DNA of 64,000 bases, from positions 124,001 to 188,000 of the forward strand of contig NZ_JAUHPW010000004.1 of assembly GCF_030418455.1 (NCBI RefSeq), given 5' to 3'. Of this stretch, positions 9,422 to 46,836 are shown in pieces (positions within the stretch are counted from its first letter, which is position 1; every line of letters starts with the position of its first letter). Under the pieces are notes generated by a model. The model was not told the origin of the DNA. It ran no database searches and saw nothing but the letters and a program-made list of their open reading frames with translations. Position numbers and translations under genes: made by a program. The DNA is from Demequina litoralis. Its GTDB lineage: Bacteria; Actinomycetota; Actinomycetes; Actinomycetales; Demequinaceae.

Positions 9422-9840
9422 CGGCGGCCGCGGATCCCCTCCGCGCCCTGCGCGACCTGCTCGCGGCCGAGCCCGGCGTGTGGCTCCTCGGCACGCGCGC
9501 GGCGGACGGGATGCGGACGCGCCCCGTGCGGGTGTTCGCCGACGAGGGCGACGCGGACCTCGTCGTGCTCACCGGGGCACGGTCCCGCAAGGCCGCCGAG
9601 CTCGAGCTGTGGCCCGAGTTCACCCTCGCGGGCCCCGTCGCGGGCGGATGGCTCGCGGCGGAGGGGAGCGCCCGCGTCGTCAGGGACGCGGCGCCCGTCG
9701 CCGCGTGGGTCGCGCGGCACGCCCCGGGGGTGCACGCGGGAGAGGTCTGCGCCCTCGTGCTGGCGCCGGCGCGCGCGCGACGGTGGAGCGTGAGCTCGGG
9801 ATCGCCGTTCGACAACACGGTCGCCACCCTGCTGCCGTGA
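9418..9840 (+). CDS. PNPOx-like split-barrel protein
   Basis: A 140-residue protein of the pyridoxamine-phosphate-oxidase-like FMN-binding split-barrel superfamily, seen from GVWLLGTRAADGMRTRPVRVF and VVLTGARSRKAAELELWPEFTL. It could bind flavin or a related cofactor, or act in stress protection; no specific reaction can be assigned. ATG 9418 overlaps the ubiX stop, which ties it to the UbiD/UbiX cassette. In known vdcBCD-type clusters the third gene is a different, about 75-residue protein, so this is not a homolog of VdcD. Prenylated-FMN handling or flavin reduction is a guess from context. Confidence 0.6.
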   Translation: MTAAADPLRALRDLLAAEPGVWLLGTRAADGMRTRPVRVFADEGDADLVVLTGARSRKAAELELWPEFTLAGPVAGGWLAAEGSARVVRDAAPVAAWVARHAPGVHAGEVCALVLAPARARRWSVSSGSPFDNTVATLLP

Positions 9841-15695: not shown

Positions 15696-16328
15696 ATGGC
15701 TGCTGATGCACGGGTGCTCGAGGACCTGAGGGCCGCCATCCTGCGCGGCGAGTTCGCGCCGCGGCAGCGCCTCGTCGAAGCCGAGCTGTGCGAACGATTC
15801 GATGCGAGCCGCTTCGCCGTCCGCGCCGCGCTCCAGGCACTCGAGGCCGACGGGCTGGTCGAGCGCCAGCGCAACGTCGGCGCGCGTATCCGCGAGATCG
15901 GCATCGAGGAGGCCGTCGAGATCAGCGAGGTGCGCCAGGTGGTCGAGGGGCTCATCGCGCGGCGCGCCGCCGAGCGTGCGAGCGACGCCGAGGCGGAGGC
16001 GCTCGCGACGATCGGCCGGGAGATGCACGCGGCGGTGGCCGCAGGCGAGGTGGGGGAGTACAGCGACCTCAACGCGCGGCTGCACTCGACGCTGCGCGAC
16101 ATCGCCTGCCACGAGAAGGCGAACGGCATCATCGCGCACCTCCACGGCCAGATGGTCCGCCACCAGTTCGCGCTGTCGCACCAGCCGGGGCGCTCCAAGG
16201 TGTCCGTGTGGCAGCACCAGGCGATCATCGACGCCGTGGTGGCGCGGGACGGCGACGCCGCCGAGGCGGCGATGCGTGCCCACATCGCCTCGGTGATCGA
16301 GGCGTTGCGGGCGATCGCGACGCCCTGA
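15696..16328 (+). CDS. GntR-family regulator (FadR/FCD type)
   Basis: Transcriptional regulator of 210 residues. The N-terminal winged helix is at about 7-70 (LVEAELCERFDASRFAVRAALQALEADGLVE). The C-terminal all-helical FCD ligand domain follows; its likely metal/ligand His residues are in LNARLHSTL, MVRHQF and WQHQAI. This class typically senses organic or aromatic acids. GGAGGAGG at 15683-15690 fixes the ATG. The gene stands just upstream of the aromatic transport and ring-cleavage operon, and the same palindrome occurs before both, so it is very probably their local repressor. Confidence 0.85.
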   Translation: MAADARVLEDLRAAILRGEFAPRQRLVEAELCERFDASRFAVRAALQALEADGLVERQRNVGARIREIGIEEAVEISEVRQVVEGLIARRAAERASDAEAEALATIGREMHAAVAAGEVGEYSDLNARLHSTLRDIACHEKANGIIAHLHGQMVRHQFALSHQPGRSKVSVWQHQAIIDAVVARDGDAAEAAMRAHIASVIEALRAIATP

Positions 16329-16503: not shown

Positions 16504-17526
16504 ATGCACGTTCAGTCCCTGTCGGTCCGCATGAGGACCGCGCTCGGAGCCGTGGCCGCCGTCGGCGTCCTCGCGCTCACCGCCTGCAGCTCGGATGGGG
16601 GTGGCACCGGCAGCAGCGAGTCGGCGGAGCCCATGGAGTCCGAGACCGGCGGCGCGATGATGGAGACCGTCGACGTCACCGTCGGCGTGATCCCCATCCT
16701 CGACGTCGCCCCGCTCTACCTCGGCATCTCGGAGGGCTTCTTCGAGGAGGAGGGCCTCACCATCACCACCGAGCTCGCCCAGGGCGGCGCGGCCATCGTG
16801 CCCGGCGTGGTGAGCGGCCAGTTCCAGTTCGGCTTCAGCAACGTCACGTCGCTCATCCTCGCCGAGTCCAACGACCTCGGCGTCGTCGCGGTCGCCCCCG
16901 GCGGCTCGACCACCGGCGACCTCATGAACGACTGGGCCGCCGTCATGACCCTCGCCGACTCGGGCATCTCGAGCCCCAAGGACCTCGAGGGCAAGAAGGT
17001 CGCGGTCAACACGCTCAACAACATCAACACCTCGACCATCAACAAGATGGTGCGTGACGACGGCGGCGACCCGTCGACCATCGAGTACGTCGAGCTCGCG
17101 TTCCCGGACATCGTCCCGGCCGTCGCCTCGGGCGACGTCGACGCCGGCCAGGTCGTGGAGCCCTTCGCCACCATCGCCAAGGGTCAGGACATGGTCAACC
17201 TGGGCTCGAACTACGCGGCCACGGACCCGAACCTCATGATCGCGGAGTACTTCACCTCGGCGACCTACGCCGAGGAGAACCCGGACGTGGTCGAGGCCTT
17301 CGCGAACGCGCTCACGAAGTCCTTCGAGTACGCGACCGAGAACCCCGACGCCGTGCGCGCCGTGCTCGCCGACTACACGAACATGGACGAGGCGACCCAG
17401 CAGGCGGTCACCCTGCTGTCGTGGCCGTCGGAGATCGACTCCAACACGGTGCAGCTGCTCGCCGACCTCGCGGTCGAGGACGGCTTCCTCACCGAGGTCC
17501 CGGACCTCTCCCCGCTGCTCCCGTAG
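16504..17526 (+). CDS. NMT1/SsuA-type substrate-binding lipoprotein
   Basis: Solute-binding protein of the SsuA/TauA/NMT1 group, about 340 residues, first gene of an importer operon. The signal peptide ends in LTAC (Cys near residue 27), and the mature N-terminus is a Gly/Ser/Glu-rich linker. The fold's signature regions are VGVIPILDVAPLYLGISEGFFEEEGL, the SGQFQFGFSNVTS pocket and the PKDLEGKKVAVNTLNN stretch. AAGGAGG at 16490-16496 precedes ATG 16504. Family members bind sulfonates, pyrimidine precursors or aromatic acids; the ring-cleavage genes downstream point to an aromatic carboxylate. Confidence 0.87.
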   Translation: MHVQSLSVRMRTALGAVAAVGVLALTACSSDGGGTGSSESAEPMESETGGAMMETVDVTVGVIPILDVAPLYLGISEGFFEEEGLTITTELAQGGAAIVPGVVSGQFQFGFSNVTSLILAESNDLGVVAVAPGGSTTGDLMNDWAAVMTLADSGISSPKDLEGKKVAVNTLNNINTSTINKMVRDDGGDPSTIEYVELAFPDIVPAVASGDVDAGQVVEPFATIAKGQDMVNLGSNYAATDPNLMIAEYFTSATYAEENPDVVEAFANALTKSFEYATENPDAVRAVLADYTNMDEATQQAVTLLSWPSEIDSNTVQLLADLAVEDGFLTEVPDLSPLLP

Positions 17527-17533
17527 CGGAACC

Positions 17534-17576
17534 CGCATCGTCCGGGCCGGGGCGGCCCACCGCCTCGGCCCGGACG
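17534..17576 (+). terminator. Intercistronic hairpin after binding-protein gene
   Basis: A 17-bp stem with one G-U pair (17539-17555 with 17560-17576) around a CCCA loop, 12 nt after the stop codon and 25 nt before the permease start. No U-tract follows. Such hairpins usually raise binding-protein levels by partial termination or mRNA protection. A GGACGATGCG copy (- strand, 17534-17543) overlaps its 5' arm. Confidence 0.6.
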
Positions 17577-17601
17577 GCACCCCCTCGACACTGGAGAGCC
17601 C

Positions 17602-18438
17602 GTGACCACCACCCCCACGGCGGCCCCGCCCGAACCCCGCGCGGCCCGCCCCCGCACCCGACGGAGCGGCCGGCGCAACGACGCCTGGCTCGGCGTCCTC
17701 GGCGTGCTCATCGTCCTCGCGGGAGCCGAGCTGCTCTCCCGCACCGGCATCGTCAACCCCGACTTCCTGCCCCCCGTCACCGAGATGTACGCCTCGCTGT
17801 TCCAGCTGCTGGGCGAGGGCTCGTTCTGGGAGTCGCTGTGGCTCACCGTGCGCGGCTGGGCCGTCGGCCTCGCGGCCGCCATGGCGCTCGGCATCGTCGT
17901 CGGCTTCGTGATCGGCTCGTCGCGCTTCCTGCGGGAGTTCACCAGCTCGACCGTCGAGTTCCTGCGCCCGATCCCCTCGGTCGCGCTCATCCCGCTCGTC
18001 GTGCTGATGTTCGGCACCAAGCCCGCATCGGCCTTCCTGCTGGTCCTCTACGCGGCCTTCTGGCAGGTGCTCGTCCAGGTGCTGTACGGCGTCGCCGACG
18101 TCGACCCGGTCGCCCGCGACACCGCCCGCTCGTACCGCTTCGGCCCTCTGCGCGTCGCGCGGTCCGTCATCTACCCGACGGCGCTGCCGTACATCATGAC
18201 CGCCTTCCGCCTCGCGGCCGCGGTCGCGCTCATCCTCGAGATCACCGCGGAGCTCGTCATCGGCGTGCCGGGCCTGGGGCGCGACATCGGCATCGCGCAG
18301 AGCTCGGGCAACGTCCCCGCGACCTACGCCCTCGTCATCGTCGTCGGCCTCATCGGCGTCGCCGTCAACCTGTTCGCCCGCTTCGTGGAGCGCAAGGCGC
18401 TCTGGTGGCACCCGTCCGTGAGGAGCGAGGTCGCATGA
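17602..18438 (+). CDS. ABC permease, SsuC/TauC type (first)
   Basis: Membrane subunit of the NMT1-type importer, 278 residues, with about six transmembrane helices after a basic N-terminus (RPRTRRSGRRNDAW). The ATPase-coupling EAA-like loop is visible around DPVARDTARSYRFGPLRVARSVIYPTALPYI, in the BPD_transp_1 domain. The start is GTG 17602. The stop overlaps the next permease start (ATGA), so the pair probably forms a heterodimeric channel, unlike the homodimer of classical SsuC. Confidence 0.88.
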   Translation: MTTTPTAAPPEPRAARPRTRRSGRRNDAWLGVLGVLIVLAGAELLSRTGIVNPDFLPPVTEMYASLFQLLGEGSFWESLWLTVRGWAVGLAAAMALGIVVGFVIGSSRFLREFTSSTVEFLRPIPSVALIPLVVLMFGTKPASAFLLVLYAAFWQVLVQVLYGVADVDPVARDTARSYRFGPLRVARSVIYPTALPYIMTAFRLAAAVALILEITAELVIGVPGLGRDIGIAQSSGNVPATYALVIVVGLIGVAVNLFARFVERKALWWHPSVRSEVA

Positions 18439-19220
18439 ACGCCGCCCGTCTCGCCCGCAGGGCCTTCATGCTGCTGGGCCTGCCGTTGATCCTGCTCGCC
18501 TTCTGGTGGGTCGCCTCGGCCAGCAGCACCAGCCCGTTCTGGCCGCCGCTGCAGACCATCCTCGAGACCTTCCCGAAGACCTGGACGTGGGACCGCATCG
18601 TCTCCGACGTCCTGCCCAGCCTCGCGCGCCTCGGGATCGGCTACGCGCTCGCGGTGGTCGTCGGCATCGTCGCCGGCACCGCGATCGGCCTCATGCCGCG
18701 TCTCCGCGCGCTCTCGGAGCCGGTGCTCGAGTTCTTCCGCGCGGTCCCGCCGCCCGTCCTCGTGCCGATCATCGCGCTGTTCGCCGGCTACACCGGCTGG
18801 CTCGGCAAGATCGTCACCATCGCGCTCGGGTGCCTGTGGCCCATCCTGCTCAACACGGTCGAGGGCGTGCGCGGCCTCGAGCCCGTCCTCAACGACACGG
18901 CCCGCAGCTACCACCTCAGCCGGTGGCGCCGCCTCGTGTTCGTGGTCCTGCCGGGCGCCAGCCCGCGCATCTTCACCGGCGCCCGTCAGGCGCTGTCCAT
19001 CGGCGTGATCCTCATGGTCATCTCGGAGCTGTTCGGGGCCAACCGCGGCCTCGGCGCGGCCATCGTGCAGTTCCAGAGGAGCTTCGCCATCCCCCAGATG
19101 TGGACCGGCATCATCCTGCTCGGCCTCATCGGAGTCCTGCTCGCGGCCCTCTTCAAGGTCGTCGAGAACCGGATGCTCGCCTGGTACGTCGGGCAGCGCC
19201 AGATCGAGCGAGGAGAGTAG
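18435..19220 (+). CDS. ABC permease, SsuC/TauC type (second)
   Basis: The second membrane subunit, 261 residues, with about six helices. Its coupling loop is LEPVLNDTARSYHLSRWRRLVFVVLPGASPRI. It is clearly related to the preceding permease but not a recent duplicate. It overlaps that gene by 4 nt and is followed after 2 nt by the ATPase gene. The role is translocation of the substrate delivered by the lipoprotein, probably an aromatic acid. Confidence 0.88.
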   Translation: MNAARLARRAFMLLGLPLILLAFWWVASASSTSPFWPPLQTILETFPKTWTWDRIVSDVLPSLARLGIGYALAVVVGIVAGTAIGLMPRLRALSEPVLEFFRAVPPPVLVPIIALFAGYTGWLGKIVTIALGCLWPILLNTVEGVRGLEPVLNDTARSYHLSRWRRLVFVVLPGASPRIFTGARQALSIGVILMVISELFGANRGLGAAIVQFQRSFAIPQMWTGIILLGLIGVLLAALFKVVENRMLAWYVGQRQIERGE

Positions 19221-19222
19221 AG

Positions 19223-20119
19223 ATGTCGATCATCCAGACCGTCCGCATGAGGTCGGCAGCCGCCGGCGCCCCGGCCGCGGGTGCGGGTGCGGGGGACGAT
19301 GCGGTCGCGCTCGACCTGCGCGGCGTCCAGAAGACCTACGACACCCCCGGCCGCCCCCAGGTCGAGGCGATCCGTCACCTCGACTTCAGCATCCGCCGCG
19401 GCGAGCTCGTGTGCGTGGTGGGCCCGTCGGGCGCCGGCAAGACCACGCTGCTGCGCTCGATCGCCGGCCTGCTCGACCTCACCGCCGGCGAGGTGGTGCT
19501 CGACGGCAGGGTCGTCTCCGGCCCGCCCGAGGGCATGGCCGTGGTGTTCCAGGAGTACGGCCGCAGCCTGTTCCCGTGGATGACCGTCCGCCAGAACATC
19601 GAGCTGCCGCTCAAGGAGAAGGGCATCGCGAAGGCCGAACGGCGCGCCAAGATCGACCGGGCGCTCGAGGAGGTGGGGCTCACCGAGGCCGGGGAGCAGC
19701 ACCCGTGGCAGCTCTCGGGCGGCATGCAGCAGCGCGTCGCGATCGCCCGCGCGATCGCCTTCGAGCCGTCCGTGCTGCTCATGGACGAGCCGTTCGCCGC
19801 CGTCGACGCGCAGACCCGCGCCGAGCTCGAGGACCTCGTGCGGAAGCTGTGGAAGGACCTCGGCGTCACCGTGCTGTTCGTCACGCACGACATCGACGAG
19901 GCCGTCTACCTGGGCGAGCGCGTCATCGTGCTCTCCAACCGGCCCACGGTGCTGATGGAGGACGTGCGCGTCGACCTGCCCGCCGAGCGGGACCAGCTCA
20001 CCACCCGCTCGGACCCGCACTTCGGGGAGCTCCGCGGCCACGTCTACGAGCTCATCCAGCAGGCCAAGCGAGGCGTGCGCCCCGACGCTCCCGCCGCATC
20101 GTCCCCCCAGGAGGCCTGA
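19223..20119 (+). CDS. ABC ATPase, SsuB/TauB type
   Basis: Nucleotide-binding subunit, 298 residues. Walker A is GPSGAGKTT, the Q-loop is VVFQEYGRSLFPW, the signature is LSGGMQQRVAIARA, Walker B is LLMDEPFAA, and the switch His is in FVTHDIDEA. The N-terminal 30 residues are a low-complexity Ala/Gly extension encoding a GGACGATGCG copy (GDDAV), and the C-terminal codons hold another copy on the opposite strand. AGGAGAG precedes ATG 19223. It completes the importer and directly precedes the catabolic genes in one transcription unit. Confidence 0.9.
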   Translation: MSIIQTVRMRSAAAGAPAAGAGAGDDAVALDLRGVQKTYDTPGRPQVEAIRHLDFSIRRGELVCVVGPSGAGKTTLLRSIAGLLDLTAGEVVLDGRVVSGPPEGMAVVFQEYGRSLFPWMTVRQNIELPLKEKGIAKAERRAKIDRALEEVGLTEAGEQHPWQLSGGMQQRVAIARAIAFEPSVLLMDEPFAAVDAQTRAELEDLVRKLWKDLGVTVLFVTHDIDEAVYLGERVIVLSNRPTVLMEDVRVDLPAERDQLTTRSDPHFGELRGHVYELIQQAKRGVRPDAPAASSPQEA

Positions 20120-20120
20120 C

Positions 20121-20816
20121 GTGGAGACCGTGATCCTCACCGACCCGCCGCGGCCAGCCCGCGAGACCGTCGAGGCGTTCTCGAGCATCGGCGTCGCGAC
20201 CGTGCACGAGGCGATGGGGCGCACCCGCTCGATCTCCGCGCTGCGCCCCATCCAGCAGGGGGTGCGCGTGGCCGGCACCGCTGTCACGGTGATGAGCTGG
20301 CCGGGCGACAACCTCATGATCCACGCGGCGATCGAGCAGTGCGGGCCCGGCGACATCCTCGTCGTCACCACCCGTGAGCCGTCCTCGCACGGCATGTTCG
20401 GCGAGCTGTTCGCGACGGGGCTCCAGCAGCGCGGCGTCGTCGGCGCGATCATCGACGCCGGCGTGCGCGACACGCAGGAGATGCGCGACATGGGCTTCCC
20501 CGTGTGGTCGCGGCACATCAACGTCATGGGCACCGTGAAGTCCACGCCGGGCGCGATCAACGTGCCGATCGTGGTCGGCGGCCAGGTCATCGACGCGGGC
20601 GACATCATCGTCGCCGACGACGACGGCCTCGTCGTCGTCCCCCGCGACGAGGCGGACGATGCGCTGGTCAAGTCCCGCGCGCGCCTCGACAAGGAGGAGG
20701 CGACCCGCGCCTCGTTCCTCGAGGGCGAGCTGGGCCTGGACCGCTACGGCATGCGCCCCGTCCTCGCGGACCTGGGCGTCACCTACCGCCGTCACCCCGA
20801 CGCGGACCCCGCATGA
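20121..20816 (+). CDS. 4-carboxy-4-hydroxy-2-oxoadipate aldolase (LigK/GalC, RraA-like)
   Basis: Class II, metal-dependent pyruvate aldolase of the RraA-like fold, 231 residues. The last step of the gallate and protocatechuate 4,5-cleavage pathways splits CHA to pyruvate and oxaloacetate. The motif GELFATGLQQRGVVGAIIDAGVRD supplies the conserved substrate Arg and metal-binding Asp region; VADDDGLVVVP is typical of the C-terminal half. The start is GTG 20121, one nt after the ATPase stop, and it overlaps the next gene by 4 nt. RraA-like proteins also act on HMG; the neighbours favour CHA. Confidence 0.85.
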   Translation: METVILTDPPRPARETVEAFSSIGVATVHEAMGRTRSISALRPIQQGVRVAGTAVTVMSWPGDNLMIHAAIEQCGPGDILVVTTREPSSHGMFGELFATGLQQRGVVGAIIDAGVRDTQEMRDMGFPVWSRHINVMGTVKSTPGAINVPIVVGGQVIDAGDIIVADDDGLVVVPRDEADDALVKSRARLDKEEATRASFLEGELGLDRYGMRPVLADLGVTYRRHPDADPA

Positions 20817-21895
20817 GCGGCATCCCCTGCGCGCTCATGCGCGGCGGCACCTCGAAGGGAGGGATCTTCCTCGCGGAGGACCTGCCCACGGACCCCGCCG
20901 CGCGCGACGACCTGCTGCTGCGGATCATGGGCAGCCCCGACGTGCGTCAGATCGACGGGCTCGGCGGCGCGCACCCCCTCACCAGCAAGGTCGGCGTGGT
21001 GAGCGTCGCGGGGGACGATGCGGCGGACATCGACTACCTGTTCCTCCAGGTCGCGGTGGACCGGCCCGTGGTGTCGACCTCGCAGACGTGCGGCAACATC
21101 CTCGCGGCGGTGGCGCCGTTCGCGATCGAGCGCGGGCTCGTGCCCGCGCGCGACGGCGCGACGGTCGTGCGGGTGCGCATGGTCAACACCGGCACCGTCG
21201 CGGCGCTGACCGTGCGCACGCCCGGCGGCGAGGTCACGTACGACGGCGACGCGGAGATCTCCGGCGTGCCCGGGTCCGCGGCGCCTGTCGAGGTGGCGGT
21301 CGAGCCCGCCGCGGGCGCGCTGCTGCCGACCGGGAACCCGATCGACACCATCGCCGGCGTCGAGGCGACCCTCATCGACAACGGCATGAAGTCGGTGCTG
21401 GTCCGCGCCGCGGACCTCGGCCTCGAGGGCGGGGAGGACCCCGCCGCGCTCGAGGCCGACCCGGCGGTGGTGCGACGCGTGGCCGAGATCCGTGCGGCGG
21501 CGTTCCCCCTCATGGGCATCGACGGCACGCCGGAGACCACCACGACGCCGAAGATCGTGCTGCTGTCCGCGCCCGCCGCCGGCGGCACCGTCCGCACCCG
21601 CAGCTTCATCCCGTTCCGCGTCCACGAGGCGATCGGCGTCCTCGGCGCCGCGTCCGTCGCCGCCGGCGTGCGGCTCGCCGGGACGGTCGCGGACGGCCTC
21701 GCCGACATGCCCGCGGACGGTGCGCCGATGCGGGTCGAGCACCCCACCGGCTTCCTCGATCTGCACGTCGACCCCGTGCCGGGCGACCCGGGCGCCGTGG
21801 GCGAGTCCCGCGTCATCCGTACCGCCCGGATGATCATGGACGGCCGCGTCCGCCCCCACACCTACCCCACCACCGCGACGGAGGAACCACGATGA
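20813..21895 (+). CDS. 4-oxalomesaconate tautomerase (GalD/LigU, PrpF family)
   Basis: Isomerase of the PrpF/diaminopimelate-epimerase fold, 360 residues. The N-terminal IPCALMRGGTSKGGIF binds the substrate carboxylates. The Cys in STSQTCGNILAAVAPFA lies in the position of a catalytic thiol, and the second half carries TTTPKIVLLSAP and RSFIPFRVHEAIGVLGAASVA. In gallate catabolism GalD converts keto to enol oxalomesaconate; in the protocatechuate 4,5 route LigU does an allylic isomerisation. PrpF of propionate metabolism is another family member, but the aldolase and LigJ around it decide for the aromatic role. It overlaps both neighbours by 4 nt. Confidence 0.85.
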   Translation: MSGIPCALMRGGTSKGGIFLAEDLPTDPAARDDLLLRIMGSPDVRQIDGLGGAHPLTSKVGVVSVAGDDAADIDYLFLQVAVDRPVVSTSQTCGNILAAVAPFAIERGLVPARDGATVVRVRMVNTGTVAALTVRTPGGEVTYDGDAEISGVPGSAAPVEVAVEPAAGALLPTGNPIDTIAGVEATLIDNGMKSVLVRAADLGLEGGEDPAALEADPAVVRRVAEIRAAAFPLMGIDGTPETTTTPKIVLLSAPAAGGTVRTRSFIPFRVHEAIGVLGAASVAAGVRLAGTVADGLADMPADGAPMRVEHPTGFLDLHVDPVPGDPGAVGESRVIRTARMIMDGRVRPHTYPTTATEEPR

Positions 21896-22911
21896 CGATG
21901 CCGCAGGGCCACGTCGCCCACCTCGGCTACGCCATGCTCGACACCCCGGACCTCGACGCGACCGTGTGGTTCTTCGAGAACATCCTCGGCATGACCGAGA
22001 CCCGCCGGGTCGACGGCATGTCCTTCCTCCGGGCCTACGACGACTACGAGGAGTGCTCGATCATCGCCTGCCAGGCGCCCACGTCCGGCATCCGCCGCAC
22101 CGCGCTGCGCGCGTCCAGCGAGCGGGCGCTCGAGGAGCGCGCCGTCGCCGTCCAGGACGCCGGGCGCCCCGGGCGCTGGGAGGACGGCATCGCCGGACGC
22201 GGCCGCACGTTCGTCACCACGGATCCGGACGGCCACCAGCTCGCCCTCTACTACGACACCGTCTGGTACGAGGCGCCGGAGGACCTCGCCGCCGGCCTCA
22301 AGAACCAGGCGCAGGCGAAGCCCAACCGCGGCATCGGCGTGCGGCGCTTCGACCACATCAACTTCCTCGCGGCGCGCCCCGAGGACAACGCGGCCTTCCA
22401 CATCGACGTGCTGGGCGCGCGACCCACCGAGCAGATCCGCATGGACGACGGCCGCATCGCGGCGAAGTGGCTGTCCTTCGGGCAGAAGTCGTACGACGTC
22501 GTCTACACCGAGGACTGGACGGGCGGCAGCGGCCGCCTCCACCACCTCGCGTTCGCGACGGACACCCGCGAGGAGATCCTCCGGGCCGCGGACCTCTGCC
22601 TCGACCAGGGCGTCCACATCGAGACCGGCCCGCACAAGCACGCGATCCAGCAGACCTTCTTCCTCTACGTCTTCGAGCCCGGCGGCAACCGCATCGAGAT
22701 GTGCAACCCGCTCACGCGCCTCGTGCTCGCGCCCGACTGGCCGCTGGTGACCTGGACCGAGCCCGAGCGCAAGCGAGGACAGGCCTGGGGCCTCGGCACC
22801 ATCGAGACGTTCCACACCCACGGCACGCCGCCCATGGAGGGGCAGGACACGCAGGCGTACCGGCCCACCGGGATGCTGGGGAAGCGCCCGAGCGGGGACG
22901 CGCGGCGATGA
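21892..22911 (+). CDS. Type I (VOC-fold) extradiol ring-cleavage dioxygenase
   Basis: Two-domain vicinal-oxygen-chelate dioxygenase, 339 residues. The N-terminal domain (HVAHLGYAMLDTPDLDATVWFF) is structural. The C-terminal domain has the Fe(II) triad: His in RRFDHINFLA, His in GRLHHLAFAT and Glu in NRIEMCNP. It should cleave the ring of a catecholic or gallic-type acid next to the diol. The known entry enzymes for this pathway (LigAB, GalA, DesZ) belong to the unrelated type II family, so this gene is a non-homologous replacement or acts on another substrate. ATG 21892 overlaps the previous stop. Confidence 0.85.
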   Translation: MTMPQGHVAHLGYAMLDTPDLDATVWFFENILGMTETRRVDGMSFLRAYDDYEECSIIACQAPTSGIRRTALRASSERALEERAVAVQDAGRPGRWEDGIAGRGRTFVTTDPDGHQLALYYDTVWYEAPEDLAAGLKNQAQAKPNRGIGVRRFDHINFLAARPEDNAAFHIDVLGARPTEQIRMDDGRIAAKWLSFGQKSYDVVYTEDWTGGSGRLHHLAFATDTREEILRAADLCLDQGVHIETGPHKHAIQQTFFLYVFEPGGNRIEMCNPLTRLVLAPDWPLVTWTEPERKRGQAWGLGTIETFHTHGTPPMEGQDTQAYRPTGMLGKRPSGDARR

Positions 22912-23795
22912 CCCGGGTCGCTCTCATCGGGTTCGGCGAGGTGGGCCGGGTCTTCGTCGAGGACCTCCGCGGCGCCGGTCAGGCCGACATCACCGCCTGG
23001 GACACCGCCTTCGCCGACCCCGGCAGCAAGGCCTCCCGCAACGCCCGCGAGCTGGGCCTCGCGCCGGCGCCGAACGCGGCGGCGGCGGTGGCGGGGGCCG
23101 ACCTCGTCGTGTCCGCGGTGACGGCCATGAACTGCGTGGCCGCCGCATCGTCCGTCGCCCCGGGTCTTCAGCATGCCGCCTGGTACTTCGACCTCAACTC
23201 GAGCTCGCCCGGCCACAAGCAGGAGGCCGCCGCGGAGATCCACGCCGCGGGCGGCCGCTACGTCGAGGCGGCGCTGATGTCGCCCATCGAGCCGCGCCGC
23301 CTCGCATCGCCCTTCATCCTCGGAGGCCCGCACGCGCAGCGCTTCGGCGAGGCCGCCGGAGGCTTCGGGCTCACCGGCGCGCGCGTCGGCGCGGCCGTGG
23401 TCGGGGTCGCCGCCGCGACCAAGCTGTGCCGGTCGGTGGTGGTCAAGGGCCTCGAGTCGCTGCTGTCGGAGTCGCTGCTCGCGGCCCGTCACTACGGCGT
23501 CGACCGTGAGGTGATCGCGTCGCTGTCGAACATCCTGCCCGAGGCGGACTGGGAGGCCATCGCGGGCTATTTCATCTCCCGGTCGCTCGAGCACGGGGTG
23601 CGGCGCGCGGAGGAGATGGAGGAGGCCGCCGCGACGGTGGCCGAGGCCGGGGTGACGCCGTGGATGGCGTCGGCAACGGTCGAGCGTCAGCGCTGGGCGG
23701 CGCAGTTCGGCGAGGTGCTGCCGCAGGGCTCCACCCCGGAGCTGGTCGACGCGGTGCGGATCGCCGCAGGACTTTTCGAGGAGGGTGACGGATGA
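22908..23795 (+). CDS. 6PGDH-like NAD(P) dehydrogenase with DUF1932 domain
   Basis: Protein of 295 residues with an N-terminal Rossmann fold (VALIGFGEVGRVFVEDL) and a helical DUF1932 domain (TKLCRSVVVKGLESLLSESLLAARHYGV) related to 3-hydroxyisobutyrate and 6-phosphogluconate dehydrogenases. It probably reduces or oxidises a 2-oxo/2-hydroxy acid. A gallate route needs no dehydrogenase. A protocatechuate route needs LigC, which is of the unrelated Gfo/Idh family, so this may be a functional substitute or a side-product enzyme. Its codons contain an inverted GGACGATGCG copy (23144). Overlaps of 4 nt on both sides place it firmly in the operon. Confidence 0.7.
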   Translation: MTRVALIGFGEVGRVFVEDLRGAGQADITAWDTAFADPGSKASRNARELGLAPAPNAAAAVAGADLVVSAVTAMNCVAAASSVAPGLQHAAWYFDLNSSSPGHKQEAAAEIHAAGGRYVEAALMSPIEPRRLASPFILGGPHAQRFGEAAGGFGLTGARVGAAVVGVAAATKLCRSVVVKGLESLLSESLLAARHYGVDREVIASLSNILPEADWEAIAGYFISRSLEHGVRRAEEMEEAAATVAEAGVTPWMASATVERQRWAAQFGEVLPQGSTPELVDAVRIAAGLFEEGDG

Positions 23796-24808
23796 TCATC
23801 GACTGCCACGGCCACTACACGACCGCTCCGGCCGCGCACAGCGACTGGCGCGAGGCGCAGCTCGCCGCCTGGGAGGCGGGGGAGGCGCCGCCGCCGTACC
23901 CCGAGATCTCCGACGACGAGATCCGCGAGTCGATCGAGTCCAACCAGCTGCGGCTCATCCGCGAGCGGGGCGCGGACGTCACGATCTTCTCGCCGCGCGC
24001 GTCCGCGATGGGCCACCACCTGGGCGACCTCGGCACGTCCGTCGCGTGGACGGCGGCCTGCAACGACCTCATCGCGCGGGTGGTCGGCCTCTTCCCGGGC
24101 ACGTTCGTGGGCGTCGCGCAGCTGCCGCAGGCGGCCGGCGAGGGCCTCGACGCGGCGGTGCGGGAGCTCGACCGGCGGATCGCTGAGGGGTTCGTCGGCG
24201 TCAACCTCAACCCCGACCCCAGCGGCGGCCACTGGACCTCGCCGCCGCTCACCGACCGCTACTGGTACCCGGTCTACGAGCGCATGGTCGAGCACGACGT
24301 GCCCGCGATGATCCACGTCTCCGCGTCGTCGAACCCGGCCTTCCACGCCACCGGCGCGCACTACATGAACGCGGACACGTCGGCCTTCATGCAGCTGCTC
24401 CAGGGCGACCTGTTCGCGGACTTCCCGACGCTGCGCCTCATCATCCCGCACGGCGGGGGAGCGGTGCCGTACCACTGGGGCCGCTACCGCGGCCTCGCGG
24501 ACATGCTCAAGAAGCCGGCGCTCGCCGACCACCTCATGGGCAACGTCTTCTTCGACACGTGCGTCTACCACCAGCCGGGGATCGACCTGCTCACCGGGGT
24601 GATCCCCGCGGAGAACATCCTCTTCGGCTCCGAGATGGTGGGCGCGGTGCGCGGCATCGACCCGACCACGGGCCACTACTTCGACGACACGCTGCGTTAC
24701 ATCGAGGCCGCGTCGCTGTCGGACGGGGATCGCGAGGCGATCCTGGCGGGCAACGCGCTGCGGGTGTACCCGGGCCTCCGGGCGGCCCTGGAGCGCGCCT
24801 CCGCCTGA
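23792..24808 (+). CDS. ligJ: 4-oxalomesaconate hydratase (LigJ)
   Basis: Amidohydrolase-superfamily hydratase, 338 residues, adding water to oxalomesaconate to give CHA, the aldolase substrate. The N-terminus IIDCHGHYTTAP carries the metal-binding HxH. IHVSASSNP and LIIPHGGGAVPYHWGR supply further metal-binding His residues, and FGSEMVGAVRGIDPTTG agrees closely with Sphingobium LigJ as I remember it. This is the most specific marker of the 4,5-cleavage route here and anchors the reading of the neighbours. Its start overlaps the dehydrogenase stop. It is the last gene of the block; a promoter-like region follows. Confidence 0.92.
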   Translation: MIIDCHGHYTTAPAAHSDWREAQLAAWEAGEAPPPYPEISDDEIRESIESNQLRLIRERGADVTIFSPRASAMGHHLGDLGTSVAWTAACNDLIARVVGLFPGTFVGVAQLPQAAGEGLDAAVRELDRRIAEGFVGVNLNPDPSGGHWTSPPLTDRYWYPVYERMVEHDVPAMIHVSASSNPAFHATGAHYMNADTSAFMQLLQGDLFADFPTLRLIIPHGGGAVPYHWGRYRGLADMLKKPALADHLMGNVFFDTCVYHQPGIDLLTGVIPAENILFGSEMVGAVRGIDPTTGHYFDDTLRYIEAASLSDGDREAILAGNALRVYPGLRAALERASA

Positions 24809-24926: not shown

Positions 24927-26849
24927 GTGCCCGCCACCGCCTTCAGCCACGTCCTCGAGCCCGTCACCCTCGGCAGCCTGCAGCTGCGCAACCGCGTCAT
25001 CATGGTCCCGATGGGGACCGAGATGGGCGACCACGACGGCCACCTCACCGACCGCGAGGTCGCGTACTACGCCGAGCGCGCCGCGGGCGCGGGCCTCGTG
25101 TGCACCGGCATCAACGCCGTGACCGACGACTACGAGGTCATCAACGAGGGGCTGGGCCGCGTCGACACCGACGCCGCGATCCCCGGCCTGCGCAAGCTCG
25201 CCGAGGCGTTCCACGCGCGCGGCGGCGCCGTGTCCGTGCAGCTCACCGCCGGGCTGGGCCGCAACATCAACAACATCGACCCCGAGCGGCTGCCGATCTC
25301 GGCGTCCGACAACACCCACTGGCTCGACCCGAGCGTGCGATGCCGACCGCTCGAGACGCACGAGATCAAGGTCATCGTCCAGCGCTTCAAGGAGGCCGCC
25401 GAGCGTTGCGCCCAGGCCGGCATCGACGCGATCGACATCCACGGCCACACCGGCTACGTCATCGACCAGTTCCTGTCGCCCGTGTGGAACCGCCGCACCG
25501 ACGAGTACGGCGGCTCGGTCGAGAACCGCTGCCGCTTCGCCGCGGAGATCATCGCCGCGGTCAAGGAGGGCGCGCCCGGCCTGCCGGTGAGCTTCCGCCT
25601 GTCGGTCGACCACCACTTCGAGGGCGGTCGCACGCCCGCCGAGTCCGTCGAGATCGCGCGCCAGCTCGAGGCCGCCGGGCTCGATCTGCTCATGGTCGAC
25701 GAGGGCTCGTACGAGGCGATGGACTACGTCTTCCCGCCGTACTACCTGGGCGACAACTGCATGATGGGCTCGGTGCGCATGTTCAAGGAGGCGCTGTCGA
25801 TCCCCGTGCTGGGCTGCGGCAACCTCACGCCCGAGCGCGCCGAGTCCGCCATCGCCGCCGGCGAGATGGACTTCGCCGGCATCGGCCGCGCGCTCATCGC
25901 GGACCCCGAGTGGGCGCTCAAGCTCGCCGAGGGCCGCCGCGAGGACATCCGCCCGTGCATCCGCTGCAACCAGCTGTGCGTCGGCAACGCCTTCGTGGGC
26001 CAGCCCCTCGGCTGCGCCGTCAACCCGACCGTGGGCAAGGAGCGCGAGCGCGTCCTCACGCCCGCCGCGACCCCCAAGCGCGTCGCCATCGTCGGCGCCG
26101 GACCGGCCGGCCTCGAGGCCGCTCGTGTCGCGGCCCTGCGCGGCCACACCGTCGACGTGTACGAGAAGGGCGAGCAGCTGGGCGGCGTCCTGTGGCCCGC
26201 CGCGACCCCGGAGTTCAAGAAGGAGCTGCGCTCCATGATCTTCTGGTGGGAGCGCCAGCTCGCGGACCTGCCCGTCACGGTCCACCTCGGCACGGAGATC
26301 GCCGCGGACTCGCCCGAGCTCGACGGCGCCGACGCCATCATCGTCGCGGTGGGCACCGAGCCCGTGGCGCCCCCGATCCCGGGCCTCGACGGGGACAACG
26401 TCGTCGAGGTCATCGACGCCCACCTCGGCGCGGACCTCGGCCACCGCATGGTGGTCTGCGGCGGCGGCCTCTCGGGCGCCGACTTCGCGCTCGAGATGCA
26501 GGAGAAGGGCCACGACGTCACCGTCGTCGAGATGGCCGACGGCATCGCCCCCGACCTGCTGATGATCAACCGCATCACGCTGCTGCGCGACCACGCCGAG
26601 GCCGGCGTCACCCTGCTCACCGGCCACCGCGTGGTCGAGGTCAACGCGGCCGGCGTCAAGGTCGACGGTCCCGACGGCCCGGTCCAGATCGCCGCGGACA
26701 CCGTGGTGAGCGCGTTCGGCGTGCGGCCCGCGACCGCGCTGGTCGAGGCGCTCCAGGCGCGCGGCGCCGTCGCTGTCGGCGACTGCGTCAAGCCCGCCAA
26801 GGTGGGCGACGCGATCAACGCCGGATTCGAGGCGGCCTTCGCGCTGTAG
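24927..26849 (+). CDS. OYE-family FMN/Fe-S/FAD oxidoreductase (2,4-dienoyl-CoA reductase-like)
   Basis: Three-part reductase of 640 residues. The N-terminal old-yellow-enzyme TIM barrel covers about 1-350 (RNRVIMVPMGTEMG; IDIHGHTGYVIDQFLSP, with the active-site His/Tyr region). An Fe-S site follows in CIRCNQLC with a further Cys in GCAVNP. The C-terminal FAD/NAD domain begins with VAIVGAGPAGLEAARVAA and has VVCGGGLSGADFALE. Family members reduce enoates, dienoyl-CoAs or trimethylamine-type substrates. Placed after the ring-cleavage operon but with its own promoter, it may reduce an unsaturated intermediate or lignin-type side chain; the substrate is unproven. Confidence 0.85.
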   Translation: MPATAFSHVLEPVTLGSLQLRNRVIMVPMGTEMGDHDGHLTDREVAYYAERAAGAGLVCTGINAVTDDYEVINEGLGRVDTDAAIPGLRKLAEAFHARGGAVSVQLTAGLGRNINNIDPERLPISASDNTHWLDPSVRCRPLETHEIKVIVQRFKEAAERCAQAGIDAIDIHGHTGYVIDQFLSPVWNRRTDEYGGSVENRCRFAAEIIAAVKEGAPGLPVSFRLSVDHHFEGGRTPAESVEIARQLEAAGLDLLMVDEGSYEAMDYVFPPYYLGDNCMMGSVRMFKEALSIPVLGCGNLTPERAESAIAAGEMDFAGIGRALIADPEWALKLAEGRREDIRPCIRCNQLCVGNAFVGQPLGCAVNPTVGKERERVLTPAATPKRVAIVGAGPAGLEAARVAALRGHTVDVYEKGEQLGGVLWPAATPEFKKELRSMIFWWERQLADLPVTVHLGTEIAADSPELDGADAIIVAVGTEPVAPPIPGLDGDNVVEVIDAHLGADLGHRMVVCGGGLSGADFALEMQEKGHDVTVVEMADGIAPDLLMINRITLLRDHAEAGVTLLTGHRVVEVNAAGVKVDGPDGPVQIAADTVVSAFGVRPATALVEALQARGAVAVGDCVKPAKVGDAINAGFEAAFAL

Positions 26850-28594: not shown

Positions 28595-31500
28595 GTGGTC
28601 GACTACATCGGGCGCGCGCTCGTCGCGGACGCCCTTCGCGAATGGAGGGAGCAGCTCCAGCAGCTGGCGACCGTCTCACCGCTGCGCGACCTCGCGCTGA
28701 GCGAGACGACCACGGTGGATCTGCGCGGCTCGCATCCCGGCGGGCTGGCCCCCCTCTTCGCCGGTCGCGCCACCTCCCTCGGGGTCCTCATCCGCGACCC
28801 CGAGCACTACGCCCAGGCGCTCCACCGCGTGCGCCTCATCCGCGAGACCGCCGAGCGGGTCAAGGCCGCCACCGGCGTCTGGACCGCCGCGATGGTCATC
28901 GGCACCGTCGCCTGGGACGAGGACGGCCGGCGTCGCGAGATGCCGCTCGTCATGCGGCCCGTCCACTTCGAGTCCGCCCGCCAGGGCGACGTGCTGCTCA
29001 CCATGCTCGACCAGGTCGCCGTCAACCCGGTCTTCCTCACCGAGGCCCGCGACCGCGACGCCGACGCAGGCCTCGCGGCCGTGCTGCCGCAGGCCGGCCC
29101 CGGTCTCGAGTTCGACCCGCGCCCGCTGTGGCAGCACGTGCGCACGCTCGGCGAGGCGTTCCCCGGCATCGAGGTCGCGGACCGGCTGTTCGTCGGCGCG
29201 TTCGACGACCCCGAGCAGCGGCTCCTCGACGACCTCGACGACATGGACCCGGTCATCGGCGCCTCCGACATCCTCGCCGCGACCGCGGGCGACCGCGACG
29301 CGCAGGCGCTGCTCGCGCAGCCGCTCCCGGCCTTCCCCGTGGGCGACCGCGACCCGTTCGCCGAGCGCGGCGTGGGCGACCTCGACGACGGCGAGTTCGC
29401 CGCCCTCGACCTCATCGCGACCGGCCGGTCCGTGTTCCTCCAGGCCCCTCCCGGGTCCGACCCCGTGGGCGCGGTCGCGGCGATCGTCGCCGATGCGGCG
29501 GCCTCGGGTCGCGCCGTCATGGCGGTCGGCGGCACCGAGCAGTCGGTGCGCGCCGTCGCGAAGCGGCTCGACCGCGTCGGCGTGTCCGAGGCGTACGTGT
29601 CCGGCGCGGTCGCCTCGTGGAACGAGACCGCCCGCCGGCGCCTGCTCACGTCGATGACGATGGGCGTCGAGGACATCGACGACGACACCCTGCGCACGGC
29701 GGGGGAGAGCCTCCTCGCCGCCCGCCACGAGCTCGAGACCCGTCTCGACGCGCTGCACCGCCCGCATCGTCCCTGGGACGTGAGCGCGTACGAGGCCGTC
29801 CAGGCCGTCGTGCGGCTCATCTCCACCGCGCCCGCGCCGATGACGCAGCAGCGGCTGGGGCCGGAGGCCGCCGCGCTGGTCGCCGAGCACGGCTTCGCCT
29901 CCGTCGCGCACGCGCTCGTCGAGCGGCTGCGGCCCGACGCGGCGCCCGAGGAGCCCGCGCCCGCGACCTCGCAGGCGACCACCGTGCTGGTGCCGTGGTG
30001 GTCCGACGTGACGGACGATGCGGAGGAGGGCGCGCTGCTCGACGAGGCGCTCGCGACGCTCGTGGTCCGCCACGTGCCCAAGATGCGCGCCGAGGCCCAG
30101 ATCGCGGCGCACGAGACCGGCATGGACGAGGCGCCGACTATCGCCGCGTGGGCGGACCAGGTGGGCCTCTTCACGGACCTGCGCGCCACGCTCGAGATCT
30201 TCTCGCCCGCGGTGTTCCACCGCTCGCTGCACGACCTCGTCGCCGCGACGGCGCCCCCCGGCACGGCGCAGGCCGGCACCCTCGCGCGGCGCGACCGCCG
30301 CGCGCTGCGCCGCCGCGCGGTCGAGCTGCTGCGTCCCGGCCGGACCAAGGACGACCTGCACGAGAACCTCGTGGCCGCGCACGCGCAGGCGCTGCGGTGG
30401 CGCGCGCACTGCTCGGCCGGCGGCTGGCCGCTCGTCCCCGACGACTTCGACCTCTACGCCGACCGCATCGAGAACGTGCTGCGCCTGTGGTCGCGGCTCG
30501 CGGGCCCTGTCGCGCAGGTGTCCGGCGAGCAGGACCTGCTCGACCAGCCGTGGGAGCACGTCCGCGACGTGCTCGAGCGGCTCGCGGAGGGCGTGCCCGG
30601 CACGCTCGAGGCCGCCGAGGCGGTGCCGGTCGAGCGCGACCTCGAGTCCGCGGGCCTCGGCCCGCTGCTGGCGGAGCTCGCCGCGCGCGACGAGGCCGAC
30701 GCCTCGCCCGAGCAGCTGCGCCGCGACCTCGAGTTCGCGTGGTGGGCCTCCGCCTTCGACGCGATCGTGTCGGCGGACCCGCGCCTCACCGAGGAGGGCG
30801 CCGTCGGCCGCGTGGTCGAGCAGTTCCTGCTGCGCGACCGCGAGTTCTCCGACGCCCGCGTGGGACCGCTCATGCGCGCCGTCGCCGAGCGCCGCCGCAT
30901 CGCGATCGCCCGCCACCCCGACTTCGCGCGCGACCTCTTCGCGACCCTCGTCGAGGGGGCCGACGCGCCCTACCGCGAGCTGTGGCGCGACCACCAGCCG
31001 CTCGTGAGCGCGCTGCGCCCCATCACGCTGGCGACCGCCGAGCAGGTGTCGCGGCTCGCGCCACCCACCCGCTGCCTCGACGTCGCGGTCGTGTTCGGCG
31101 CCGAGTCCCTCGCGCTCGCCGAGACCGTGCCCACGCTCGCCCGCGCACGCCAGGTGGTGGTGGTCGGGGACGCCGAGGCCGCGACCCGCAGCGCCGTCTC
31201 CGTCTTCGCCCACATGCTGCCGCGCGTACCCCTGCACGCCCTGCCGCAGCCGCGCGACCCGCGCGTCACAGGCGTGCTCGGCACGCTCGCGTACGGCCGC
31301 TCGCTCAGCTCGCTGCCGTCCGCCGGCATCCCTCACGCGCTCGACGTGACGCTGCTCGACGCCACCGGCTCGGCCGCCGCGGGCGAGCACGTCGTCCAGT
31401 CCACGCATGCCGAGGTCGCCGCCGTCATCGACCACGCCGACCGCGTGGTCCACTCGATGCCGCGCCGCAGCCTCGCCATCGTCGCGGGCAACGAGCTCCA

Positions 31501-32800
31501 CGCGGCCCGCATCCGCGACACGCTCGACGAGCGCGGCACGCGCCTCGCCGAGGCCGTCACCGTGGTGACGGTCGGCAACGCGGCCGGCCTCGACGTCGAC
31601 GAGGTGATCCTCACGCTCGGCTACGCGCGCGACGCGGCGGGCACGCTGCCCGCGAGGCTCGGCGCGTTGTCCGAGGAGTGGGGCGCGCAGGCGCTGGCCC
31701 AGGCCGTCGTCGCGAGCCACGAGCGGCTCACCGTGGTGACCGCGCTCGGCGCCGACGACCTCGCGGCGATCGCCGAGGGCGGCGAGGCGGACGCGATCGA
31801 CGGGCTGCGCGAGCTCGTGCTCGCGGTCGGCTCGGAGCCCGTGCCGCCGGAGCGTCCCGAGCCGGCGCCGGGCGACTGGCTGCTCGCGGACATCGCGGGC
31901 CGCGTGCGCGCCGAGGGATACGCCGTGCACGTGCGCTACGGCGCGGGCGCCGACGCGATCCCGCTGGTCGTCGGCGGCCGCCACGACCGCGGCTACCGCG
32001 TCGCCGTCGTGACCGACGAGGCGTCGCGGGGCGGCTCGGCGAGCGTGCGCGACCGCATGCGCCACCAGTATGCGAGCCTCGAGGCGCTCGGGTGGTCCGT
32101 GGTGTCGCTGTGGACGCTCGACGTGTTCATGGACCCCGACGCGGCCGTCGCCGCGATCATCGACGCGGTCGAGCGGGAGAAGGCGCCGCTCGTGTGGGAG
32201 CAGCCGGCGCTCGACCTGGGCGTCGAGACCTCCGAGATCCGCGTGCCCGCGGAGGAGGTCTTCGACGTCGCCGCGGTCGACGACGTCACCGGCGCGATCC
32301 CCGAGCTGCGCGCCGAGGAGCCGCCCGCGCCCGTCGAGCCCCCGGCCGAGCCCGAGGCCCCCGACGTCACGCTCGGCATCTCCGTGATGCTGGCCGAGCA
32401 GATCCTCGCCGACAAGGTCGAGACCCGCGCGCTCCAGCAGGTGCAGGCCGAGCTCGACCTGGACGGCGCGGACGCCGCGACGGACGATGAGGACATGACC
32501 GACGACCCGACCGAGGACACGACGGAGCCGGAGCAGGACGCCGCGGAGCCCGCGGACGGCACCCCCGAGGAGCCCGCGCAGGAGCCCGAGGCGGCCGAGG
32601 ACGAGGCGACCGAGGACGATCCCGCGGCCGACGCATCGTCCCTGCCCTCGCCGCCGCCCATCCGGCCCGCGTCGCGCGGGGCCGGCCGTCCCCTCATCCC
32701 GACGCGCGCCAGCGAGGACCTCGACGAGGGCTGGGGCGGCTCGCACGGCGGCTCGAGCCGCGACGAGGAGATCAAGCGGGAGCGCCCGCCGCACTGGTGA
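28595..32800 (+). CDS. Giant degenerate SF1 helicase with MTES_1575-like nuclease domain
   Basis: Protein of 1401 residues built like the DUF4011 / AAA helicase / REase_MTES_1575 proteins, but with the catalytic residues eroded. The Walker A position reads QAPPGSDPVG (283-292) instead of GPPGTGKT. Motif II reads VVFGAES (832-838) where DEAS is expected, followed by VVVGDAEA (856-862) in place of GDxxQ. The C-terminal endonuclease-like domain (about 1092-1195) has IPLVV and AVVTDE in place of the acidic catalytic positions, but keeps RDRMRHQYASLEALGWSVVSLW. A long acidic Glu/Asp/Pro tail (about 1235-1360) ends in a short basic stretch. It probably serves as a DNA- or protein-binding scaffold. 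Similar genes occur in other Micrococcales as far as I recall. Confidence 0.7.
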   Translation: MVDYIGRALVADALREWREQLQQLATVSPLRDLALSETTTVDLRGSHPGGLAPLFAGRATSLGVLIRDPEHYAQALHRVRLIRETAERVKAATGVWTAAMVIGTVAWDEDGRRREMPLVMRPVHFESARQGDVLLTMLDQVAVNPVFLTEARDRDADAGLAAVLPQAGPGLEFDPRPLWQHVRTLGEAFPGIEVADRLFVGAFDDPEQRLLDDLDDMDPVIGASDILAATAGDRDAQALLAQPLPAFPVGDRDPFAERGVGDLDDGEFAALDLIATGRSVFLQAPPGSDPVGAVAAIVADAAASGRAVMAVGGTEQSVRAVAKRLDRVGVSEAYVSGAVASWNETARRRLLTSMTMGVEDIDDDTLRTAGESLLAARHELETRLDALHRPHRPWDVSAYEAVQAVVRLISTAPAPMTQQRLGPEAAALVAEHGFASVAHALVERLRPDAAPEEPAPATSQATTVLVPWWSDVTDDAEEGALLDEALATLVVRHVPKMRAEAQIAAHETGMDEAPTIAAWADQVGLFTDLRATLEIFSPAVFHRSLHDLVAATAPPGTAQAGTLARRDRRALRRRAVELLRPGRTKDDLHENLVAAHAQALRWRAHCSAGGWPLVPDDFDLYADRIENVLRLWSRLAGPVAQVSGEQDLLDQPWEHVRDVLERLAEGVPGTLEAAEAVPVERDLESAGLGPLLAELAARDEADASPEQLRRDLEFAWWASAFDAIVSADPRLTEEGAVGRVVEQFLLRDREFSDARVGPLMRAVAERRRIAIARHPDFARDLFATLVEGADAPYRELWRDHQPLVSALRPITLATAEQVSRLAPPTRCLDVAVVFGAESLALAETVPTLARARQVVVVGDAEAATRSAVSVFAHMLPRVPLHALPQPRDPRVTGVLGTLAYGRSLSSLPSAGIPHALDVTLLDATGSAAAGEHVVQSTHAEVAAVIDHADRVVHSMPRRSLAIVAGNELHAARIRDTLDERGTRLAEAVTVVTVGNAAGLDVDEVILTLGYARDAAGTLPARLGALSEEWGAQALAQAVVASHERLTVVTALGADDLAAIAEGGEADAIDGLRELVLAVGSEPVPPERPEPAPGDWLLADIAGRVRAEGYAVHVRYGAGADAIPLVVGGRHDRGYRVAVVTDEASRGGSASVRDRMRHQYASLEALGWSVVSLWTLDVFMDPDAAVAAIIDAVEREKAPLVWEQPALDLGVETSEIRVPAEEVFDVAAVDDVTGAIPELRAEEPPAPVEPPAEPEAPDVTLGISVMLAEQILADKVETRALQQVQAELDLDGADAATDDEDMTDDPTEDTTEPEQDAAEPADGTPEEPAQEPEAAEDEATEDDPAADASSLPSPPPIRPASRGAGRPLIPTRASEDLDEGWGGSHGGSSRDEEIKRERPPHW

Positions 32801-46035: not shown

Positions 46036-46037
46036 GA

Positions 46038-46733: not shown

Positions 46734-46757
46734 GGTGCCTCCGACTCCGTTGTCTGA

Positions 46758-46779
46758 CCACATCGTGGATGCAGTGGAC
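46758..46779 (-). promoter_or_regulatory. IclR operator at scoA promoter
   Basis: CCAC-ATC-GTGG (46758-46768) followed by GTGGAC (46774-46779), next to a - strand TAGCGT -10 hexamer (46779-46784). The half-site GTGGAC/GTCCAC recurs at the iclR promoter. Confidence 0.5.
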
Positions 46780-46836
46780 GCTAGACCTGAGGGGCGATTC
46801 GGGTCAATGGGCGCGCAGGATGTGGTCATCGGGGGC

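Follow-up and report, generated by a model that had tools for sequence, protein, structure and literature searches.

A two-domain VOC protein as the candidate gallate dioxygenase of a 4-oxalomesaconate operon in Demequina litoralis

Introduction

How does a pathway for gallate-type acids begin when the only ring-cleavage gene beside its lower steps belongs to a different superfamily from the known gallate dioxygenases? This question is raised by a 64,000-nt stretch of DNA from Demequina litoralis (the window, meaning the whole stretch analysed), in which an operon on the + strand (16504-24808) encodes, in this order, the NMT1-type binding protein, two permeases and ATPase of an ATP-binding cassette (ABC) importer, a 4-carboxy-4-hydroxy-2-oxoadipate (CHA) aldolase (LigK), a 4-oxalomesaconate (OMA) tautomerase (LigU), a two-domain type I extradiol dioxygenase of the VOC superfamily (here called VOC), a DUF1932 dehydrogenase and an OMA hydratase (LigJ). 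To our knowledge, the known gallate dioxygenases, such as GalA and DesB, are type II enzymes. In AromaDeg, too, gallate dioxygenases are grouped under the type II (LigB) superfamily (PMC4250580). We consider it likely that the operon imports and degrades gallate and that VOC is a type I (non-LigB) extradiol gallate dioxygenase giving OMA.

Results

Beyond the genus, relatives of VOC are found among the genes of the OMA pathway. A profile scan of GTDB returned at least 567 stretches encoding a relative, and the best 80 named loci (58-89% identity) are all actinobacterial, mostly from Streptomyces. The neighbours in these 80 loci include LigK (75), LigU (74), a GntR regulator (70), GalB (65) and one major facilitator superfamily (MFS) family (42), with LigJ in 4, LigI in 1 and neither PcaA nor LigC in any. 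GalB and LigJ serve one and the same step but are not related to each other, and no locus of the 80 holds both. The GalB representative, taken from L085, hits an OMA hydratase of known structure (5cgz) at E 3e-78. LigK, LigU and one OMA hydratase, either GalB or LigJ, are all present in 67 of the 80 loci and in 64 of the 71 that are not cut near a contig end. Of 297 genomes sampled from the order, 28 gave a match at E 1e-40, and for 16 the identity was 50% or above; LigU, LigK, LigJ or GalB lay within about 1.5 kb in 14 of these 16 loci, compared with none of 14 paralogue loci (30-36% identity) drawn from 21 paralogue matches. All co-occurrence counts given here are uncorrected for phylogeny.

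Plasmid records (85 with a VOC match, 6 of them inspected) show that the clade also has members in Agrobacterium, Rhizobium, Roseibium, Roseomonas, Methylobacterium and Pantoea, and those seen label its proteins "catechol 2,3-dioxygenase" or "VOC family protein". GalB, VOC, LigK and LigU stand together on the Agrobacterium, Roseibium and Rhizobium plasmids, with Agrobacterium adding a tannase gene (Pfam Tannase match). The Methylobacterium locus combines VOC with LigJ, DUF1932 and LigK, and that of Roseomonas gilardii (L130) with a LigAB-like enzyme, a LigI-like gene, DUF1932 and LigK. L130 and a locus of genome G148 (L116) each have a LigAB-type dioxygenase clustered with VOC, which looks like a joint entry for protocatechuate and gallate.

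Do the genomes that carry VOC also carry the genes of a conventional entry? We searched 66 of them (16 from the order sample and those of 50 of the 80 GTDB loci, the remaining 30, including L089, being left out), calling a LigAB/PcaA-like protein at 35% identity or more over at least 280 aa and LigI at 39% identity or more. The former was found in 10, the latter in 18 and neither in 45. Eight of the 66 have no PF02900 (LigB-superfamily) protein at all, a family that discriminates poorly, with 48 of 50 large actinomycete genomes having such a protein, mostly as short or low-identity PcaA matches.

Tannins and syringyl lignin are sources of gallate, the ring compound that is cleaved directly to OMA, and closing the carbon skeleton of OMA gives gallate. 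If cleavage leads straight into the pathway at OMA, with no lactone hydrolase required, the compound cleaved should therefore be a 3,4,5-trihydroxylated benzoate. A tannase-family gene occurs in 6 of 100 VOC loci and a LigM/DesA-like gene also in 6 of 100, frequencies that stand without a background rate and come from queries each drawn from one of these 100 loci; the LigM proteins of L118 and L119 score 917 and 889 bits against a cut-off of 580. Such neighbours fit gallate as the substrate, as do three LigM-like genes of D. litoralis itself, described below.

Comparison within the genus shows how VOC is inserted into the operon. Of 44 Demequina genomes, 17 have LigJ, 16 PcaA, 16 LigI and 7 VOC. 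All PcaA and all VOC genomes fall within the 17 LigJ carriers, each of which has PcaA or VOC, and the chance of full nesting, uncorrected for relatedness, is P 5e-4 for VOC and P 4e-11 for PcaA. One genome (G356; 99% complete, 20 contigs) has VOC and LigJ and neither PcaA nor LigI. For the 10 LigJ-positive genomes without VOC, nine loci were read (G366 was left out) and seven were measured for the junction of ligU with duf1932, no LigU having been found in L140 and no DUF1932 in L143, where LigK and LigJ lie beside PcaA. In six of these seven the two genes overlap by 4 nt (the seventh has a gap of 69 nt), the same overlap as at the ligU-voc and voc-duf1932 junctions of the window, and VOC is therefore a clean cassette lodged between the tautomerase gene and duf1932, through which the lower pathway gains a second entry. 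The closest named locus, that of D. lignilytica SYSU T00039 (L036), conserves the operon order apart from LigU, its VOC being 89% identical.

DUF1932 is not tied to the VOC gene. It is kept in 8 of the 9 VOC-less Demequina loci read, in genomes that carry PcaA and LigI, and lies near VOC in 9 of the 80 GTDB loci as well as in L116, L117, L122, L130, L131, L134 and L135. We also considered DUF1932 as a substitute for LigC acting on the VOC product, a role made unlikely by its staying in the VOC-less operons of LigI genomes.

What kind of enzyme is VOC? Its protein matches PF00903 in two stretches, and Pfam, an AlphaFold2 (AF2) model, Foldseek and VIA-align all give a two-domain VOC fold and not that of LigB, with no PF02900 among the Pfam matches. 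The model (predicted local distance difference test score, pLDDT, 77; residues 296-337 below 50) is closest to AphC of Rhodococcus RHA1 (7q2a, 3lm4; Foldseek TM 0.81; VIA-align Z 39, 35% identity), an alkylcatechol 2,3-dioxygenase, and Foldseek and VIA-align also relate it to XylE and HPCD. With residues numbered from the ATG at 21898, H153, H216 and E267 are present in 102 of 102 clade sequences, the window copy included; they are presumably the 2-His-1-Glu iron triad of type I enzymes, roles that we assign by alignment to XylE and that AphC shares by alignment. H248 and Y257 are likewise invariant in all 102. The clade departs from other type I enzymes at position 199, which is Tyr in 102 of 102 sequences and His in 14 of 14 paralogues, XylE, AphC and 5znh. 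This second-sphere His is the acid-base catalytic residue in XylE (H199) and HPCD (H200), and we take Tyr199 as a divergence within the type I superfamily, not as grounds for exclusion from it.

The best NCBIfam model for VOC is the catechol 2,3-dioxygenase equivalog TIGR03211 (291.1 bits, under the cut-off of 320.2), and the closest solved sequence is PDB 9wgj (328.8 bits), deposited as "Catechol 1,2-dioxygenase". Like the VOC clade, 9wgj has Tyr at position 199; in our tree it groups with the clade (98/95) and adjoins it, its placement outside being less supported (94/86) and subject to a warning of long branches. It is absent from the Foldseek matches listed for the VOC model, and we found no published function for it in the open literature searched.

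The remaining assignments (Table 1) were made with Pfam and NCBIfam profiles and sequence searches of the PDB. As sequence-based predictions, those of LigK, LigU, LigJ and VOC to their families are strong. LigK scores 294.8 bits with NF006731 (cut-off 179, passed) and 255.3 with TIGR02798 (cut-off 304.5, failed), and LigU 428.7 bits with NF033377, slightly under its cut-off of 440. The top NCBIfam model of the ATPase is SaoA (226 bits, under the cut-off of 360), and the solved structures nearest to DUF1932 (4ezb, 3qsg) have no assigned function. The initial annotation of the window had proposed the aldolase, the tautomerase, LigJ, a 6PGDH/DUF1932 dehydrogenase and a dedicated NMT1-type importer in first place, and these searches bear it out in coordinates and gene content. 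Its description of the junctions as overlapping by 4 nt or nearly so holds for five exact 4-nt overlaps and two spacings of 1-2 nt; the binding protein and the first permease are 75 nt apart. As in gallate degradation clusters, an OMA tautomerase, an OMA hydratase and a CHA aldolase are linked to a ring-cleavage gene and a transporter; LigI, LigC and a LigAB-type dioxygenase, which mark a protocatechuate 4,5-cleavage operon, are not within it. A scan for promoters and terminators gave 0 promoter-like sites and 1 terminator-like site, not above shuffled sequence.

Table 1. Genes of the operon and its flanks, with positions in the window
Feature	Position	Strand	Evidence
GntR/FCD regulator	15696..16328	+	Pfam FCD, GntR; 175 nt upstream of operon
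NMT1/SsuA-type substrate-binding protein, ABC importer	16504..17526	+	PF09084 E 7e-35
ABC permease 1	17602..18438	+	PF00528
ABC permease 2	18435..19220	+	PF00528
ABC ATPase	19223..20119	+	PF00005 E 3e-33
CHA aldolase (LigK)	20121..20816	+	NF006731; 3noj E 1e-70
LigU/GalD-type OMA tautomerase	20813..21895	+	NF033377; 6p3j E 6e-96
VOC, two-domain type I extradiol dioxygenase (candidate gallate dioxygenase)	21892..22911	+	PF00903, structure model, neighbourhoods
DUF1932/NAD-binding-2 dehydrogenase	22908..23795	+	PF09130, PF03446
LigJ-type OMA hydratase	23792..24808	+	6dxq/6dwv E about 9e-165
FadH/old yellow enzyme (OYE)-family flavin oxidoreductase	24927..26849	+	PF00724; 118 nt downstream of operon

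The operon has no ring-cleavage gene besides VOC, as first annotated, but the genome has another one of the 4,5 type. Another contig (C21) carries, at about 72.7-79.7 kb, a single-chain type II protocatechuate 4,5-dioxygenase (PcaA; 872 bits, PRK13372 cut-off 837), the 2-pyrone-4,6-dicarboxylate (PDC) hydrolase LigI (4d8l, E 1e-102), LigC (9azo, PmdC, E 3e-144), a LysR gene and a PobA-like 4-hydroxybenzoate hydroxylase gene (PRK08243, 479 bits, cut-off 351; under the TIGR02360 cut-off). The absence of LigI and LigC noted in the same annotation is thus a property of the operon, not of the genome. A reading of 36 kb around these C21 genes (L002, L003) turned up no LigK, LigU or LigJ, and LigJ has a single clear copy genome-wide. 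The protocatechuate pathway is therefore probably split, with its upper half on C21 and its lower half in the window operon, and the operon probably serves protocatechuate as well.

Discussion

In light of these neighbourhoods, how might the operon work? The comparison of VOC relatives, a comparison of sequences, points to an independent, gallate-type entry enzyme and supports the predicted gene set, the independence of VOC from LigAB and LigI, and two entries into one lower pathway. We infer the substrate (gallate), the site of cleavage, the activity of VOC and the cargo of the importer. The NMT1-type importer would bring in gallate, and VOC would open its ring between C4 and C5 (equal to C3-C4 by symmetry) to give OMA directly, with Tyr199 and the third hydroxyl of gallate assuming the role of the missing His. 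LigU would then tautomerise OMA, LigJ would hydrate the product to CHA, and LigK would cleave CHA to pyruvate and oxaloacetate; PcaA, LigC and LigI on C21 would deliver protocatechuate-derived OMA to the same LigU, LigJ and LigK. For the whole VOC clade, in many Actinobacteria and several Proteobacteria, we see an even chance that it forms a second, independently evolved class of gallate dioxygenase, marked by distal cleavage and by Tyr199, perhaps aided by the third substrate hydroxyl, in place of the acid-base His.

Several observations weigh against gallate as the substrate or against VOC as its entry enzyme. The substrate of VOC is not defined by its fold or iron ligands, nor by AphC and 9wgj, its nearest relatives of known structure. 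Eleven of the 80 GTDB loci have no hydratase (5 of them cut near a contig end), L105 lacks LigU, L124 and L126 have VOC without pathway genes nearby, the Pantoea plasmid (L132) has VOC with none of the OMA genes, and the operon of D. lignilytica has no LigU between LigK and VOC (9242-10001 of L036). A Nocardioides cluster (L089) holds LigI (78%), LigJ and VOC together, and a LigAB-type enzyme adjoins VOC in L130, which also has a LigI-like gene, and in L116, whose genome, with LigAB, VOC and DUF1932, gave no LigI match. Furthermore, the characterised PcaA of Pseudarthrobacter also converts gallate (PMC8431788). With PcaA coexisting in D. litoralis, VOC is therefore not strictly needed for gallate in this genome, and the two entries may overlap.

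The initial annotation had left a choice between a VOC enzyme that evolved gallate-type cleavage and an operon for some other trihydroxylated or methoxylated acid. The former is favoured by the 80 neighbourhoods, by the carriers without LigI or LigAB and by G356; set against it are LigI, LigC and PcaA elsewhere in the genome and a DUF1932 that is not tied to VOC.

Could VOC instead be a second protocatechuate 4,5-dioxygenase, with LigC, or perhaps DUF1932, acting on the semialdehyde as its oxidant and LigI or a different hydrolase opening the lactone? In favour of such a route, DUF1932 follows VOC immediately in the window and lies close to it elsewhere, LigI and LigC are present in this genome, and L130 and L089 have LigI-like genes near VOC. 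We nevertheless regard it as unlikely, for 48 of the 66 carriers, G356 among them, are without LigI at the identity threshold used, DUF1932 is missing from most GTDB loci and retained in VOC-less Demequina operons whose genomes have PcaA and LigI, and the linked tannase and O-demethylase genes fit gallate. Slightly less probable still is proximal (2,3) cleavage, with VOC as an enzyme like PraA or AphC that has only a secondary link to the OMA genes. Proximal cleavage is indeed what the type I relatives of known function carry out, the nearest solved relative, 9wgj, could be PraA-like, and the Pantoea VOC stands apart from all OMA genes; a 2,3-cleavage route, however, requires a decarboxylase and 2-hydroxymuconate semialdehyde genes, whereas the neighbours of VOC in 67 of 80 loci are LigU, LigK and GalB or LigJ, no search having been aimed at pra genes.

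A last alternative, which we hold to be about as improbable as proximal cleavage, is that VOC mainly cleaves 3-O-methylgallate or another partly methylated gallate, OMA arising after loss of methanol. LigM/DesA-like genes, which occur close to some relatives and also at another place in this genome, would agree with it, yet LigM-type enzymes demethylate ahead of ring cleavage and the linkage to tannase fits free gallate. The GalA product of 3-O-methylgallate, moreover, becomes PDC (PMC12481942) and would need LigI, not found in most carriers tested.

In comparison with known systems, gallate cleavage by VOC would combine a familiar lower pathway with an unfamiliar first step. The gal cluster of Pseudomonas putida KT2440 (GalA, GalB, GalC, GalD and others; PMC7022639, PMC10512348) shares the downstream logic of tautomerase, hydratase, CHA aldolase and transporter, and most relatives of the window operon likewise use a GalB-type hydratase; the window operon differs in its VOC ring-cleavage gene, its LigJ hydratase and its NMT1 ABC importer. 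The protocatechuate 4,5-cleavage operon of Pseudarthrobacter phenanthrenivorans Sphe3 (pcaD, E, C, A, B; PMC8431788) similarly provides an OMA hydratase and a CHA aldolase in an actinobacterium. As in Sphe3, a PcaA-like single-chain enzyme, LigI and LigC are present in the D. litoralis genome, but on another contig, and the ring-cleavage gene of the window operon is VOC. No VOC or type I gallate dioxygenase appeared in the open PMC literature searched, which mostly does not cover subscription journals, and a gal-type pathway whose ring-cleavage step is predicted to lie on an unrelated fold would be new relative to that literature.

If the VOC clade cleaves gallate, the route of many streptomycetes, other actinomycetes and some rhizobia and agrobacteria has been hidden under a misleading "catechol 2,3-dioxygenase" label. 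There would also be a clear example of steps that stay the same while their enzymes are exchanged, VOC taking the place of GalA and LigJ that of GalB. In turn, the invariant change from His to Tyr allows a direct test, in a family of natural enzymes, of what the second-sphere residue does in extradiol cleavage.

Other features of the genome and window

Three LigM-like genes of D. litoralis score 494, 387 and 357 bits, all under the cut-off of 580. These LigM/DesA-like folate-dependent O-demethylase genes cluster with MTHFR, FolD and formyltransferase-domain genes at about 5.1-14.6 kb of L139 (G000:C21:10001-28000), and the set may be a dedicated cluster for demethylation and one-carbon metabolism.

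The FadH/OYE gene behind the operon accompanies it in some, not all, Demequina copies and possibly lies outside the pathway. Upstream, on the + strand (7332-9840), are a UbiD-family gene resembling VdcC (393.7 bits, cut-off 650), a UbiX gene that is over the UbiX cut-offs and reaches 238.7 bits with VdcB (under the cut-off of 290), and a small PPOX-like gene; the UbiD/UbiX set may encode a hydroxyarylic acid decarboxylase. We also considered a route by way of pyrogallol that uses UbiD and UbiX (7332-9421); it is unlikely, a UbiD homologue being present in only 2 of the 80 loci and the lower genes fitting a tricarboxylate product. At 44243-47634, a thiolase of the acetyl-CoA acyltransferase family, both subunits of a PcaIJ/ScoAB-type 3-oxoacid CoA-transferase (over cut-offs) and an IclR-type regulator possibly form the end of a beta-ketoadipate route. 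Lastly, a 1401-aa protein encoded at 28595-32800 on the + strand has a weak DUF4011 match and a REase_MTES_1575 domain and weakly resembles models of anti-phage proteins, and homologues (73-92%) are found near the operon, on the corresponding side, in five further genomes of the genus (L127, L140, L141, L144, L147).

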